Program-made: the position numbers and the translations under genes | In this document: piece after piece, positions 17,674-24,243 of the stretch | Layout: each line of letters starts with the position of its first letter | Numbering within the stretch: the stretch's first letter is position 1 | Notes under the pieces: generated by a model | Told to the model about the DNA's origin: nothing | Database searches by the model: none | What the model saw: the letters and a program-made list of their open reading frames with translations, nothing else | Source: Apostichopus japonicus | Taxonomy: Eukaryota; Echinodermata; Holothuroidea; Aspidochirotida; Stichopodidae | Reading direction: 5' to 3' | DNA: 64,000 nt | Assembly (NCBI RefSeq): GCF_037975245.1 | Contig: NC_092570.1 | Coordinates: 15,555,001-15,619,000 of the forward strand

Positions 17674-17807
17674 ATGGCGCACCCAGAACTAAGCGATGCC
17701 TTCATAGAGTTGTCAGCCTACTTAGCTCAGAAGGGTACCAAACGTGAGGCGCGTGTATTTATCGAAGATGTCAAAGAAGGTGGACTTGCCTTCAATAGCG
17801 GCATCAG
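17674..17807 (+). CDS. P1 exon 1 (PDZ, first half)
   Basis: The exon starts [20 protein letters not shown] and ends GGLAFNSGI plus two bases of Arg, with donor CAG|GTGAGT. P2 has an exon of identical length (134 nt). Confidence 0.78.
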
Positions 17808-20800
17808 GTGAGTTTCTTTATTTTCATTAAATCCATAACTTTAAGTGACTAACAAACTTTAAGTAGCATAGTGATCAAATAGTTGGTCCACCGTCATACA
17901 AGGGCATATATTCTGTAATATAATGACAAACGTTTTCCAAAAAGGATTGAAACGAAAATGTCGAGTTGGAAGATAAGAGAATCGTTGCTTGTCGGGTCAA
18001 AACAAACTTTAACAGTTGGAATTGTTTCCCAGAAGTGTTCAAAAACTAGATCTTCGAAATAGAATGCAAGACACCATCGGTTAATATCATATTTCCCTGT
18101 TTATATCAGATCAATTAAGTACAGATTTATAAATTAGGTAAAGTACATATGCAACAAACTACACAAGGAAGATTATGTTCTTACCCCAAGAGTAACGTTA
18201 AAGCTGCGACGCCTAGCTCACCCGTTACAAACGATAACAGGACTGCATTTGATGATGATACTACAAACGAACATGATGATAGTTTGTACTTCATGATAAT
18301 ATACAAGTACTGCGGGATCACCCAAACCGCTTCATTCCCAATGGCGGAGCGTCCATACAGTCAGGGGGCGGATGCCCCCCCCCCCTGACTCAAATGGACT
18401 GCTGGCGCCCTTTTCAGCTTTTTACTTATTCGCGAATATTGACTATTTTATTGCTCTCATATCTACCTATTGACATTTGTCACATTTTGTTGGTGTAATT
18501 TTCTTACAAATTGCTCTGACGGCAATTTATTCTTCGTTTATCTGCAAATTAGCAATGCCCGGAAAGGGTCATTTCCGGCGATCTAGGGAGTATCTCTACT
18601 CAAAAAAAATCTGTACGCTCCGCGCCAACCTGTGGTGGCGCTCCGCTTAGATAGTGTCGAAAGCGCCCCTACAGACCATTCTCGGCCCTCTGACCATAAC
18701 CCCTAGCTCCGCCACTGTTCATTCCCCTAAGTTAATTAAATCAAAGGTTAGGAACGGACCACTCATCTAGAAGATAAATGTCGACACAAACAAAAAGTAG
18801 TAGTATTATTTCTGGATACAAGAATGTTCAATCTGAGAGACGCTGAATATATGGGGTTTAAATTCTTAAGATATTGTTAGTCGTCGACATTTTTTTATTA
18901 TAATAACATTTTAAGTAAATGTGGCAATTATTTCAAGAAAACAAAACAACATACATATTATTATAATTGTTATGACGCAACTTGACTGTATAATCATTCA
19001 TGTTTACTTATTTAGAGATTCTGATCGTTTGGTTGCTATACACAAGACCGATGTCAAAAACCTGTCGTTCGACGAAATCCTGGAAGCCATCAAATGTACC
19101 TCGGTCATAGTGTTGGTAAGAACATTTTGTCTTACTATCTGACTATACTCGCAAGCATGTGAATGAATCTTCAAGGTTGTCATCGTGTGTGAAGGGCTTA
19201 CCTATACGTGTGGGTGTTGCGTGTCTGTGTCTGTGTGCGTTTGTGCGTTTGTTTTGCTATCTGACCGAGGACTTGAACAAAAGAATTACAGGTCCTCGGT
19301 TGTGATTTCTAAAGAATCACCCCGTCCTCGGAAGAATTCTATTGTATGGGGTATTGTTAAGGTTAGGGTACGTGGATTTGAACAATGGAATATACAATGG
19401 GGTCCTCGGTCTGAATGTAATACAAACATGTGTGTGTATGTGTGCGTGATAACCTCTGCTTTGGCTGACAGATTAGAGTGAGCGATGGGTTATTTCATTG
19501 CCGATTGTATCATTGGTCTACTTTCGTTAAGAACCCAATTGCTTTGGTGCAAGTCAACGGCCATTGGAGGTCACCAAGGTCAAATTAAAGTATACATTTT
19601 CGGTGAGCTCAAAGGTCATATCCTGTCAACAGAGGTCACAATTTCAATTTCTTGCAAAACGAGTACATTGAGTCGCAAAGATGGTACATGTTAAAGGATT
19701 TAGTCCCACATTTAACATATCGTTGTCCAGACATTTTGAAAATCGTGTGTTAATAACATGTGAACATTAAAACTGCATTAGGCTGAGAACACATCAATGT
19801 TGATAGCTAATCGAGTACTACAGTGGTGAAACGCTACAAATATCAACATATCAACTCAGAGAACCAATTTAAGCACGGCAAGCAGTTATTGACTAAATTT
19901 GCAATGGCGATGTCGTATGTGTGATGTCGCACGTATGATGTATTTGTGTGATGGTTTGCACTTTAAACACTATGACTCAAAAAGTACAGTGTTTCAACTA
20001 GGGATTGCTTTATTCTAAATTATACAAATGTTATAAATATGATAACTTTAGCAGCGATACCTCAATGATATTGATCCTGGGTATACGAGATCCAACCTAA
20101 AACGAAAAAAAAAAAATCATAGAAGTCAAAGACATTAGAACTAAAATTAAAATGGATGAAGGACAAATATAGTATATTTAGCTCCATCTCCAATGACGAC
20201 AAGGCAGCTACTTTGAGCGGAGTTCAAGGGTCATTTGAGGTCACCTATATTCAAAGGTGTAATTTCTGTATATGTATTTAATTGGTATAACACAATATAC
20301 AGAAAAAAAGAAAATTTATTTTGCAGGCGTTGATGAATTACAAATTGCCCAATCTGGTTTTCTCTTCTTCTTGACAGACTGTAGAGCGATCTGTGAAGAA
20401 GAAAAATGTTTCCATTGTCATAGCTCTTGATATAGGAATAAATTCAGGTTAGTTTAATATTTGCATGAAAACAATAACGACCCACCTGTTACAATCAACA
20501 AAGGGCAGCTACGTCAGGATAGACAAGCTGAAGATGGTAATGGACGGGGGGCGCTGTAACAAATAGCGATATCACGGTTTTCCTGTTTATGGATATGCTG
20601 TTTACCGTTCTTTCTGAAAGGCAACTTATATTTACTTATATATAGTCACACTTTTCATCGTTCGCCAATTCATTCGGTTCTGCTGTTTCCATACATCAGT
20701 TTAAAAATGTATAATAAAATAAATATGTACACTCCGTGAATAAGCTAATCTATGAACTTATCTCGCCCACTTAAGTTTATGAATAATTTCATTGATCAGC

Positions 20801-23800: not shown

Positions 23801-24243
23801 GAAAACCGTGTCAGTTCGAATTTGCCCTATTTTAATTGAATTAGGAATGTTAGGTACTTTCCCCAGTAGTATCACTGTTTCCTCAAAGGAATTGCCAATG
23901 ATGTCAGAGACCGCAACTTGTGAAGTTTTGCGGACCTAAAGAGGACCGATATGATAGCGCCCCTTTTAAGTTATTGATTTTATGGCGTGGCTAAAAATTC
24001 CCATTAATTTCCATTTCTGTCATATTTTGATTACCTTTACTATTATATTCATAACAACTCTTCTACTTTGATAATAAAGTCTACTTCACAGTGTTCACAT
24101 ACACGGCTGCTGTAAATCCAAGCAGATATAAAATACCTGTGATACTCGTACCGAACGATCAACCGAAGAAATGCTTAGCCGCAAATAACCAAAACGAACT
24201 GGCCCTTGCGGTAAGAGACTGTTATAAGTTCATTTCGGTGTAA
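17674..24243 (+). CDS. P1: PDZ-like domain joined to an IL-1-type beta-trefoil-like C-terminus (complete paralog)
   Basis: Coding exons 17674-17807, 19016-19115, 20378-20447, 20844-21047 and 24092-24243 join in frame into 219 residues and a TAA stop. Residues 6-84 read as a PDZ domain: [29 protein letters not shown], then [11 protein letters not shown] and a VIVLTV strand. The usual GLGF carboxylate loop is replaced by SDAFIEL. Residues 100-219 have short strands such as RYYLAVENEDISFTES and TYTAAVNPSRYKIPV, ending with CYKFISV. This echoes the IL-1 signature (roughly F-x-S-A-x2-P-x2-Y) and the final IL-1 strand. No signal peptide or membrane segment is seen, so it is probably cytosolic. Exon structure is well supported by P2 and P3. 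PDZ is likely; the trefoil is an inference, and about 118 residues is short for a full fold, so a phase-1 exon in intron 4 may be missing. The start is set by the P3 comparison, since the frame is open upstream into a minisatellite. Confidence 0.75.
18339..18717 (+). mobile_element. Small hAT-like MITE, copy B1 (in P1 intron 1)
   Basis: The ends are CAATGGCGGAGC and GCTCCGCCACTG, with an exact 8-bp duplication TTCATTCC (18331-18338 and 18718-18725). It is 379 bp with no coding. The matching point of P2 intron 1 (about 38735-38755) has one undivided copy of the target. Confidence 0.88.
19016..19115 (+). CDS. P1 exon 2 (PDZ, second half)
   Basis: The exon is 100 nt, between TTATTTAG and TTG|GTAAGA. 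It encodes [13 protein letters not shown], then [11 protein letters not shown]. The same size occurs in P2 and P3. Confidence 0.85.
20378..20447 (+). CDS. P1 exon 3
   Basis: The exon is 70 nt, between TTCTTGACAG and CAG|GTTAGT. It encodes [20 protein letters not shown], finishing the last PDZ strand and starting the linker. P2 and P3 have the same length. Confidence 0.85.
20844..21047 (+). CDS. P1 exon 4
   Basis: The exon is 204 nt, between CCTTATTATAG and GAAG|GTAAAA. It encodes GHPYLNLIGVYWHAIFNDV, then QMQTKRYYLAVENEDISF. P2 matches only its first 20 or so codons. Confidence 0.78.
21765..22440. repeat. Dense field of palindromes in P1 intron 4
   Basis: About 0.67 kb is built from a few short modules (CATATCATCGATTTA, ACTGGTATATGTCGATTT, TTATTTTACTTATCATCG) in both orientations around TTTAAA centres. 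The clearest palindrome is centred between 22077 and 22078 with 31-bp perfect arms. After a 14-bp offset the arms go on to the AGAATGAAACTGG module. Confidence 0.88.
22441..24091. other. Right part of P1 intron 4
   Basis: CTAGCGACGTCCCTG at about 22660 looks like one end of a family-A element, but the partner end was not found. A missing phase-1 exon of P1 could lie here; none was convincing. Confidence 0.4.
24092..24243 (+). CDS. P1 exon 5 (stop codon)
   Basis: The acceptor is CTACTTCACAG and the phase fits exon 4. It encodes FTYTAAVNPSRYKIPVILVP, then KKCLAANNQNELALA and VRDCYKFISV before TAA. A donor-like GTAAGA lies inside at 24211, so splicing to further exons cannot be excluded, but the short read-through tail looks like a final trefoil strand. 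Confidence 0.65.

Follow-up and report, generated by a model that had tools for sequence, protein, structure and literature searches.

A PDZ domain joined to a probable IL-1-like domain in a sea cucumber gene family

Introduction

Does a small protein of the sea cucumber Apostichopus japonicus join a PDZ domain to a β-trefoil of the IL-1 type? An initial annotation of a five-exon reading within the window, the 64,000-nucleotide stretch of DNA analyzed here, proposed this pairing. The question bears on the age of IL-1 ligands. As summarized in a 2022 review (PMC9020223), IL-1-like activities occur in echinoderms, tunicates and insects and IL-1R-like receptors are present in invertebrates, while the invertebrate IL-1-like molecule is described as uncharacterized and its gene orthologue as unfound. 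A 2025 survey dates the origin of IL-1 to some 420 million years ago and assigns it to early vertebrates (PMC12108812). Among the literature matches listed, in a search with subscription journals and preprints outside its scope, no title named an invertebrate IL-1 ligand gene.

Gene structure

Using the 219-residue product of the five-exon model as the query, a protein search returned P0001, a 290-residue protein annotated by NCBI as an "uncharacterized protein" of A. japonicus (95% identity, 97% query coverage). From P0001, splice sites and paralogs we built gene A, which has eight exons between 16010 and 31014 on the plus strand (Table 1). The joined exons differ from P0001 at six positions and contain no internal stops. 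The five-exon model translates as written, giving 219 residues with an acceptor at 24092 (223 with 24080), but the gene is longer. Exons 1-4 of that model were correct apart from the start of the first, which lies at 17653 rather than 17674 (tblastn of P0001 and splice sites). The five exons are not the whole gene, as the first coding exon and the last two had been missed. Additionally, the terminal CYKFISV that had been likened to the last IL-1 strand is not coding sequence. Because exon 6 ends at a GT donor (gcg/gtaaga), VRDCYKFISV (24211-24243) belongs to the intron. Within P0001, the Pfam PDZ match covers residues 40-95, followed by a linker at about 115-150 and a C-terminal domain at about 155-290. 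No signal peptide was visible on inspection of the 290-residue translation.

Table 1. Exons of gene A and of two related genes in the window (a slash marks the splice junction).
Feature	Position	Strand	Content and basis
Gene A exon 1	16010..16033	+	MATSKKKG; phase 0 end; P0001 N-terminus, start codon, donor ggg/gtatgt
Gene A exon 2	17653..17807	+	PDZ start; phase 2 end; tblastn of P0001 (98% identity), splice sites
Gene A exon 3	19016..19115	+	PDZ; phase 0 end; tblastn of P0001, splice sites, Pfam PDZ
Gene A exon 4	20378..20447	+	PDZ end and linker; phase 1 end; tblastn of P0001, splice sites
Gene A exon 5	20844..21047	+	204 bp; linker and start of putative IL-1-like domain; phase 1 end; tblastn, splice sites
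Gene A exon 6	24080..24210	+	131 bp; middle of putative IL-1-like domain; phase 0 end; tblastn of P0001, splice sites, donor gcg/gtaaga
Gene A exon 7	30223..30337	+	115 bp; NFDEENY...ASTVKP; phase 1 end; tblastn of P0001, splice sites
Gene A exon 8	30941..31014	+	74 bp; domain end and TAA stop; tblastn of P0001 (96% identity), acceptor
Gene B, PDZ-bearing paralog	36333..40883	-	matches P0002 (153 aa); splice sites
Gene B PDZ exons	40883-40851, 40358-40204, 38437-38338, 37037-36968	-	splice sites
Gene B fifth exon	from 36436, stop at 36333	-	sequence, splice sites
Gene C, P0016-type paralog	1332..4628	-	PDZ and linker exons; exons 1 and 3 100% identical to P0016
Gene C exons	4628-4465, 4254 to 4155 (if donor as in gene A), 1401-1332	-	splice sites

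Eighteen family proteins were found (P0001-P0018). Gene prediction could in principle have fused two neighbouring genes, a reading that would suit the 6-kb length of gene A intron 6 and the annotation of P0002 and P0013, in which the second domain is wholly or partly missing. We regard such an artefact as very improbable, since on three large contigs (20.0, 26.8 and 29.6 Mb) paralogs are annotated with a PDZ domain followed by the second domain, as in gene A, and splice sites and phases are consistent over all eight gene A exons. Gene models that were truncated, skipped exons, read through or looked odd were dropped from the alignments used below. The 12-row alignment omits P0004, P0005, P0011, P0013, P0017 and P0018, and the 11-row alignment of the second domain omits these and P0002. 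The Pfam scan of full-length proteins covered 10 of the 18.

The PDZ domain

The assignment of the first part of the five-exon product to the PDZ family was upheld by Pfam PF00595, which matched residues 25-80 with 24.6 bits (E 3.3e-5; cut-off 23.2 bits). P0001 itself scores 23.6, and six of the ten family proteins scanned are at or above the cut-off; P0014-16 fall below it and the truncated P0012 is unmatched. Matches in the family start at profile position 21-25. Among PDB sequences, the family profile was closest to PDZ-RhoGEF ARHGEF11 and NHERF3 (E 4.3e-7), the best match beginning past the first strands. By eye, a carboxylate-binding loop of the GLGF type is not recognizable, the family reading LSAYL or LSAFL; thus peptide binding by the sea cucumber PDZ domain is uncertain.

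The C-terminal domain

Direct searches with the second half returned little. The C-terminal part of the five-exon product alone had no match among PDB sequences up to E 10 and, in Pfam, nothing below E 0.11; the IL-1 resemblance emerged after the gene had been corrected and paralogs added. Pfam IL1 (PF00340, cut-off 25 bits) was reported in one of ten full-length proteins (14.6 bits, E 0.026) and in one of 11 isolated domains (16.2 bits, E 0.0082), in both cases below the cut-off, and it is the sole non-PDZ family listed for P0007. Neither two consensus sequences nor the second domain of gene A itself found a match in Pfam, the domain profile found a single, unrelated PDB sequence (E 0.41), and a search for internal repeats reported nothing.

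Aligned by hhalign with eight human IL-1 proteins, the 11 paralog domains scored 35.2 over 72 columns (P 5.3e-5), a value reached by none of 500 column permutations (best 22.7) and none of 300 six-column block shuffles (best 30.0). As yardsticks, accepted IL-1 proteins scored 22.3 against FGF, and the reversed sea cucumber domains scored 16.3 against IL-1. When one accepted IL-1 member was compared with the other seven, IL33 scored 17.6, IL18 37.9, IL1A 47.9 and the remaining five at least 95.4. The result held when single human proteins were left out in turn (29.2-35.6) or P0001 was omitted (29.3). Individual domains also scored above all of their 300 shuffles, P0001 with 28.5 (best shuffle 20.9) and P0007 with 31.9 (best 26.0). 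The P0003/6-12 group alone reached 25.0, while the P0014-16 group alone scored 9.8 against IL-1 and 17.6 against FGF. Against single human sequences, the 11 domains scored 20.0-23.3 for IL1B, IL1RN, IL36G and IL37, and 12.7-14.5, which is control level, for the other four. The similarity to vertebrate ligands lies in the central and later portions of the domain; several paralogs read IES...NGWYI opposite FES...PGW[FY]I.

Other trefoils were compared in the same way. FGF, whose fold class is the one proposed here, scored only 11.3, Kunitz STI 11.2 and hisactophilin 11.1. The FGF value was equalled or exceeded by 365 of 500 permuted controls, and with scores of about 11, at control level, all three families were rejected as candidates for the origin of the C-terminal half.

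The PROSITE IL-1 signature, taken as printed in PMC4880838, aligns with residues 260-280 of the gene A product, in the later exons, where 4 of 9 constrained positions agree; several paralogs read IESTVNNGWYIT in this region. Human IL1B carries all nine, and IL18 (6) and IL33 (5) also miss the signature, so that it is no strict definer of the IL-1 family. The segment originally taken for the signature region, TYTAAVNPSRYKIPV, aligns N-terminal to that place within the domain, where its KIPV pairs with the KIPV of IL1B. Windows overlapping TYTAAVNPSRYKIPV agree at no more than four of the nine constrained positions, no better than windows elsewhere in this protein, which reach up to five.

Two AlphaFold models, from 2 and 12 sequences, both had a mean pLDDT of 36.9, with a C-terminal part built mostly, and unreliably, of strands. 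Because the PDZ domain fared no better in these models, their low confidence says little about a trefoil. Foldseek on the 12-sequence model gave nothing below E 0.14, and its matches are meaningless.

Intron positions

Human IL1B has coding exons of 47, 52, 202, 165, 131 and 213 bp, sizes that yield the published phases; the middle exon of gene A is likewise 131 bp. With human sites placed by these sizes, the split codon of V185 in gene A lies opposite V40 of IL1B, both by MAFFT and, via P0008, in a longer hhalign alignment. The next gene A intron, LALA/NFDEENY (LVLW/PFDETVY in P0008), falls opposite LQLE/SVDPKNY by hhalign and three columns away from the IL1B position by MAFFT. Overall, gene A introns have phases 0,2,0,1,1,0,1, which is the IL-1 order 2,0,1,1,0 flanked on either side by a single additional intron. 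This order is described for turtle IL-1beta, with 1,1,0 typical of the last three introns (PMC4880838).

These data can be weighed against a second reading, in which the PDZ domain is joined to a different all-beta domain, possibly a trefoil of another type, and the likeness to IL-1 is a short strand pattern. The sub-threshold Pfam scores, the failure of P0014-16 to match alone, the half of single human templates at control level, the 72-column span of the best local match and the low pLDDT of the fold predictions all lean that way. We nevertheless consider it unlikely, given that the three other trefoil families stay at control level while the IL-1 score exceeds every permutation and block shuffle, that intron phase order and aligned sites agree with IL-1, and that a PDZ/IL-1 protein is described in fish (PMC7144542). 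Judged from sequence, the second half of gene A is a probable, divergent relative of IL-1 rather than a certified member of the family.

Relation to known IL-1 proteins

The initial annotation knew of no described protein with this pairing. Such a protein had already been published: nIL-1F, a novel IL-1 family member of lumpfish, other teleosts, Callorhinchus and Latimeria, is described for lumpfish as carrying a PDZ and an IL-1 domain in one protein (PMC7144542), as gene A would if its IL-1 half is accepted from the profile comparison. According to the same description, lumpfish nIL-1F has 352 residues and seven coding exons, whereas gene A has 290 residues and eight, the first of just 24 bp; the IL-1 domain of the fish protein was found by InterPro, whereas that of the sea cucumber lies under the Pfam cut-off. 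One protein is vertebrate and the other echinoderm, and the two were compared by published description. What is new, set against that account, is that an invertebrate has a family of this kind.

We consider it quite likely that gene A encodes a PDZ domain, a linker and a C-terminal domain homologous to the IL-1 trefoil. As that domain is probably an IL-1 homologue, the product would be the echinoderm counterpart of fish nIL-1F. This reading draws on the gene model, the PDZ match, the paralogs, profile similarity to IL-1 and not FGF, and the intron phases, from which we infer fold and common descent. The PDZ/IL-1 pairing first proposed is still the best-supported account, partly on grounds other than the original ones.

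Vertebrate IL-1beta has a propeptide where gene A has its PDZ domain, and gene A has extra introns at both ends. A PDZ trace in the human IL1B propeptide was sought and rejected, since 157 of 200 permutations scored as high against the sea cucumber N-terminus. More tentatively, and with somewhat less than even confidence, we suggest that IL-1 ligands predate vertebrates. The ancestral form may have been a PDZ-IL-1 fusion that echinoderms and vertebrates inherited from a shared ancestor. Sea cucumbers would have kept and expanded it, and fish would retain it as nIL-1F. In IL-1alpha/beta, the propeptide may have taken the place of the PDZ exons or may be their decayed remnant, within the same intron frame, 2,0,1,1,0. 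If these proteins do belong to IL-1, the ligand predates vertebrates, the account in which the receptor came before its ligand would have to change, and the PDZ domain seen in fish nIL-1F would be a candidate for an ancestral feature. Named sea cucumber genes are now at hand for testing the old echinoderm IL-1-like activity.

Possible function

In the initial annotation, the product could be an intracellular protein of the IL-1 fold, anchored by its PDZ domain. The gene A protein might be made in the cytosol, where its PDZ domain could tether it to a partner or membrane scaffold; damage or proteolysis of the linker might then release the IL-1-like domain, which could act as a ligand or antagonist at IL-1R-like receptors of neighbouring cells. 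The nearest functional guide, by analogy, would be fish nIL-1F, a reported IL-1beta antagonist.

Alternatively, the protein could be a true IL-1 relative that serves purely as an intracellular scaffold or regulator, never released and without a receptor. With regard to origin this is a sub-case of the preferred reading, and with regard to function its rival. We hold it to be possible but rather doubtful: the lack of a visible signal peptide and the usual cytosolic place of PDZ domains would suit it, but vertebrate IL-1 proteins, turtle IL-1beta as described in PMC4880838 among them, also lack a signal peptide, and nIL-1F of grass carp reportedly binds IL-1 receptor type 1 (PMC7144542).

Other genes of the window

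Two further family genes lie on the minus strand (Table 1). For gene B, tblastn with four proteins of the family as queries, at a limit of E 0.5, did not find later exons for the IL-1-like domain. A Pfam scan of ten other long ORFs in the window gave two weak matches, both below the cut-off. Gene C runs out of the window ahead of its IL-1-like exons, and the annotation of P0016 gives the second exon an earlier donor than the one assumed here for gene C.

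Gene A and its predicted product

The initial annotation described five exons encoding a 219-residue protein. Used as the query in a protein search, this product returned five proteins at E values up to 10, the top match, at 95% identity, being P0001 of Apostichopus japonicus, which is 290 amino acids long and annotated as uncharacterized. The exons of the corresponding gene, gene A, were placed by tblastn of P0001 on the window and inspection of splice sites, yielding eight predicted coding exons. When joined, these exons form an open frame of 290 amino acids with six differences from P0001 and intron phases of 0,2,0,1,1,0,1. 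We reproduced the 219-residue translation; however, one 5' exon and two 3' exons had been missed. Additionally, the acceptor chosen for the 131-bp exon lies later than the corrected one and the final ten residues were read from intron, as indicated by tblastn of P0001 and the splice sites.

Coding exons of gene A and paralogous copies in the window
Feature	Window position	Strand	Evidence
Gene A coding exon 1	16010-16033	+	N-terminus of P0001, start codon, donor site
Gene A coding exon 2	17653-17807	+	tblastn of P0001, splice sites
Gene A coding exon 3	19016-19115	+	tblastn of P0001, splice sites
Gene A coding exon 4	20378-20447	+	tblastn of P0001, splice sites
Gene A coding exon 5	20844-21047	+	tblastn of P0001, splice sites
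Gene A coding exon 6, 131 bp	24080-24210	+	tblastn of P0001, splice sites
Gene A coding exon 7	30223-30337	+	tblastn of P0001, splice sites
Gene A coding exon 8	30941-31014	+	tblastn of P0001, splice sites
Gene B, close paralog (P0002)	40883-36333	-	tblastn, sequence, splice sites
Gene C, P0016-type paralog	4628 to 1332, continues off window	-	tblastn, splice sites

Intron 1 of gene A carries a minisatellite (about 26 copies of ~45-bp units, 16420-17601) that stops some 50 bp short of exon 2. A 135-bp repeat in two copies, 98% alike, lies in intron 5 with an adjoining 41-bp repeat (21912-22221); by eye, these repeats hold many palindromic ATCGATTTAAATCGAT-like motifs.

A family of paralogs

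Gene A belongs to a family and is not an isolated gene. Its paralog P0003 is about 37-40% identical to P0001, and a profile of the two returned 14 proteins at E values up to 10, all named A. japonicus. Their contigs are listed at 20.0, 26.8 or 29.6 Mb or are smaller. A second search, restricted to the C-terminal domain, gave 13 proteins, of which P0018 was new. No member named from another species was among the matches of these searches, which depend on common 5-residue words.

The window holds two further copies. Gene B has the PDZ exons and an early stop in its fifth exon, and the later exons of the IL-1-like domain were looked for in the window and not found. It seems to be a PDZ-only or decaying copy that has apparently lost its second domain. 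Two exons of gene C are identical to P0016, and the window ends before the exons of the second domain are reached. In their annotated form, P0014-P0016 have a long charged tail rich in K, E and R. P0013 is annotated without exon 5, with exon 4 residues joined directly and in frame to exon 6, and the gene A junctions at both ends of exon 5 are phase 1. A protein made in this way would lack the beginning of the IL-1-like domain. The apparent domain loss in gene B and the P0013 form would fit a family under change.

PDZ domain and IL-1 resemblance

As initially proposed, the first half is PDZ: the 219-residue protein exceeds the Pfam PF00595 cut-off, which was passed by six of ten scanned family proteins, and a profile built from 12 family members finds PDZ domains in the PDB, with E values down to 4.3e-7. 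The peptide-binding GLGF motif was not recognisable by eye in this half.

The second half had been read as IL-1-type. In its original version this half gave a best Pfam E of 0.11 and no match to PDB sequences. In the corrected family, P0007 alone among ten scanned proteins shows a weak Pfam IL1 match (residues 182-274, colinear with positions 6-96 of the 119-position profile), scoring 16.2 bits as an isolated domain, under the cut-off of 25. The stronger test was to compare profile with profile. The eight human IL-1 family sequences used (IL1A, IL1B, IL1RN, IL18, IL33, IL36G, IL36RN and IL37) were confirmed against PDB chains. In hhalign, 11 aligned sea cucumber second-half domains scored 35.2 against them (P 5.3e-5, 72 columns). 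The best of 500 column permutations scored 22.7, six-column block shuffles preserving local texture gave at best 30.0 in 300, and the reversed domains scored 16.3. Against FGF the domains scored 11.3, with 365 of 500 permutations as high, against soybean trypsin inhibitor 11.2 and against hisactophilin 11.1. As yardsticks, accepted IL-1 versus FGF gave 22.3, and one accepted member versus the other seven gave 17.6 (IL33), 37.9 (IL18), 47.9 (IL1A) and at least 95.4 (the other five). Leaving out any one human protein yielded 29.2 to 35.6. The single domains of P0001 (28.5) and P0007 (31.9) each exceeded all 300 of their own shuffles.

Other results point against the IL-1 reading. The P0014-16 group alone reached 9.8 versus IL-1 and 17.6 versus FGF, and the P0003/6-12 group alone 25.0 versus IL-1. 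Against single human proteins, the 11 domains scored 20.0-23.3 (IL1B, IL1RN, IL36G, IL37) or only 12.7-14.5 (IL1A, IL18, IL36RN, IL33). Neither the domain encoded in the window nor either of two consensus sequences had a Pfam match, and the domain profile found one unrelated PDB sequence (E 0.41). At the aligned place, which lies in exons missing from the initial annotation, four of nine positions agree with the PROSITE IL-1 signature. Because scores lie below curated family thresholds, we consider the second half a probable divergent IL-1 relative, not a certified member; its beta-trefoil is putative, since AlphaFold gave no usable model.

Comparison with vertebrate IL-1 genes

Passages of PMC4880838 give turtle IL-1beta coding intron phases of II,0,I,I,0, the last three typically 1,1,0, and assign the trefoil to the last three exons of IL-1beta. 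Gene A has 2,0,1,1,0 in order but an extra intron at each end. Intron places in human IL1B were derived from exon sizes that we take to be 47, 52, 202, 165, 131 and 213. These sizes reproduce the phases printed in the same passages of PMC4880838. MAFFT places the split codon V185 of gene A opposite IL1B V40, and so does the longer of the hhalign alignments by way of the paralog P0008. The next intron (slash), LALA/NFDEENY (LVLW/PFDETVY in P0008), faces LQLE/SVDPKNY in hhalign and is three columns away in MAFFT; the exon between these two introns is 131 bp. Over the PDZ exons, gene A shares its phase order with IL1B but not the exon lengths, and the IL1B propeptide does not resemble the N-terminal part of the sea cucumber protein.

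Although no described protein with this pairing had been known to the initial annotation, nIL-1F, a novel IL-1 family member of fish, already combines PDZ and IL-1 domains in lumpfish, according to passages of PMC7144542 that also cite its IL-1beta antagonism and the binding of grass carp nIL-1F to IL-1 receptor type 1. Outside vertebrates, a PDZ and IL-1 type gene was not found in print among the matches listed. The relevant passage of PMC9020223 states that receptors, but not IL-1-like homologous sequences, have been identified in invertebrates, and passages of two others date the origin of IL-1 to about 420 million years ago (PMC9382457; PMC12108812).

We propose that the gene A protein would be cytosolic, without a signal peptide, and held by its PDZ domain, the linker to the IL-1-like domain being a natural place of release. 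The freed domain may act on IL-1R-like receptors or, as reported for fish nIL-1F, block them.

Elsewhere in the window, an ORF at 61071-61409 (+) weakly resembles the ABC transporter membrane family of Pfam (17.6 bits against a cut-off of 28, E 0.0033) and is perhaps one exon of an adjoining ABC transporter gene.
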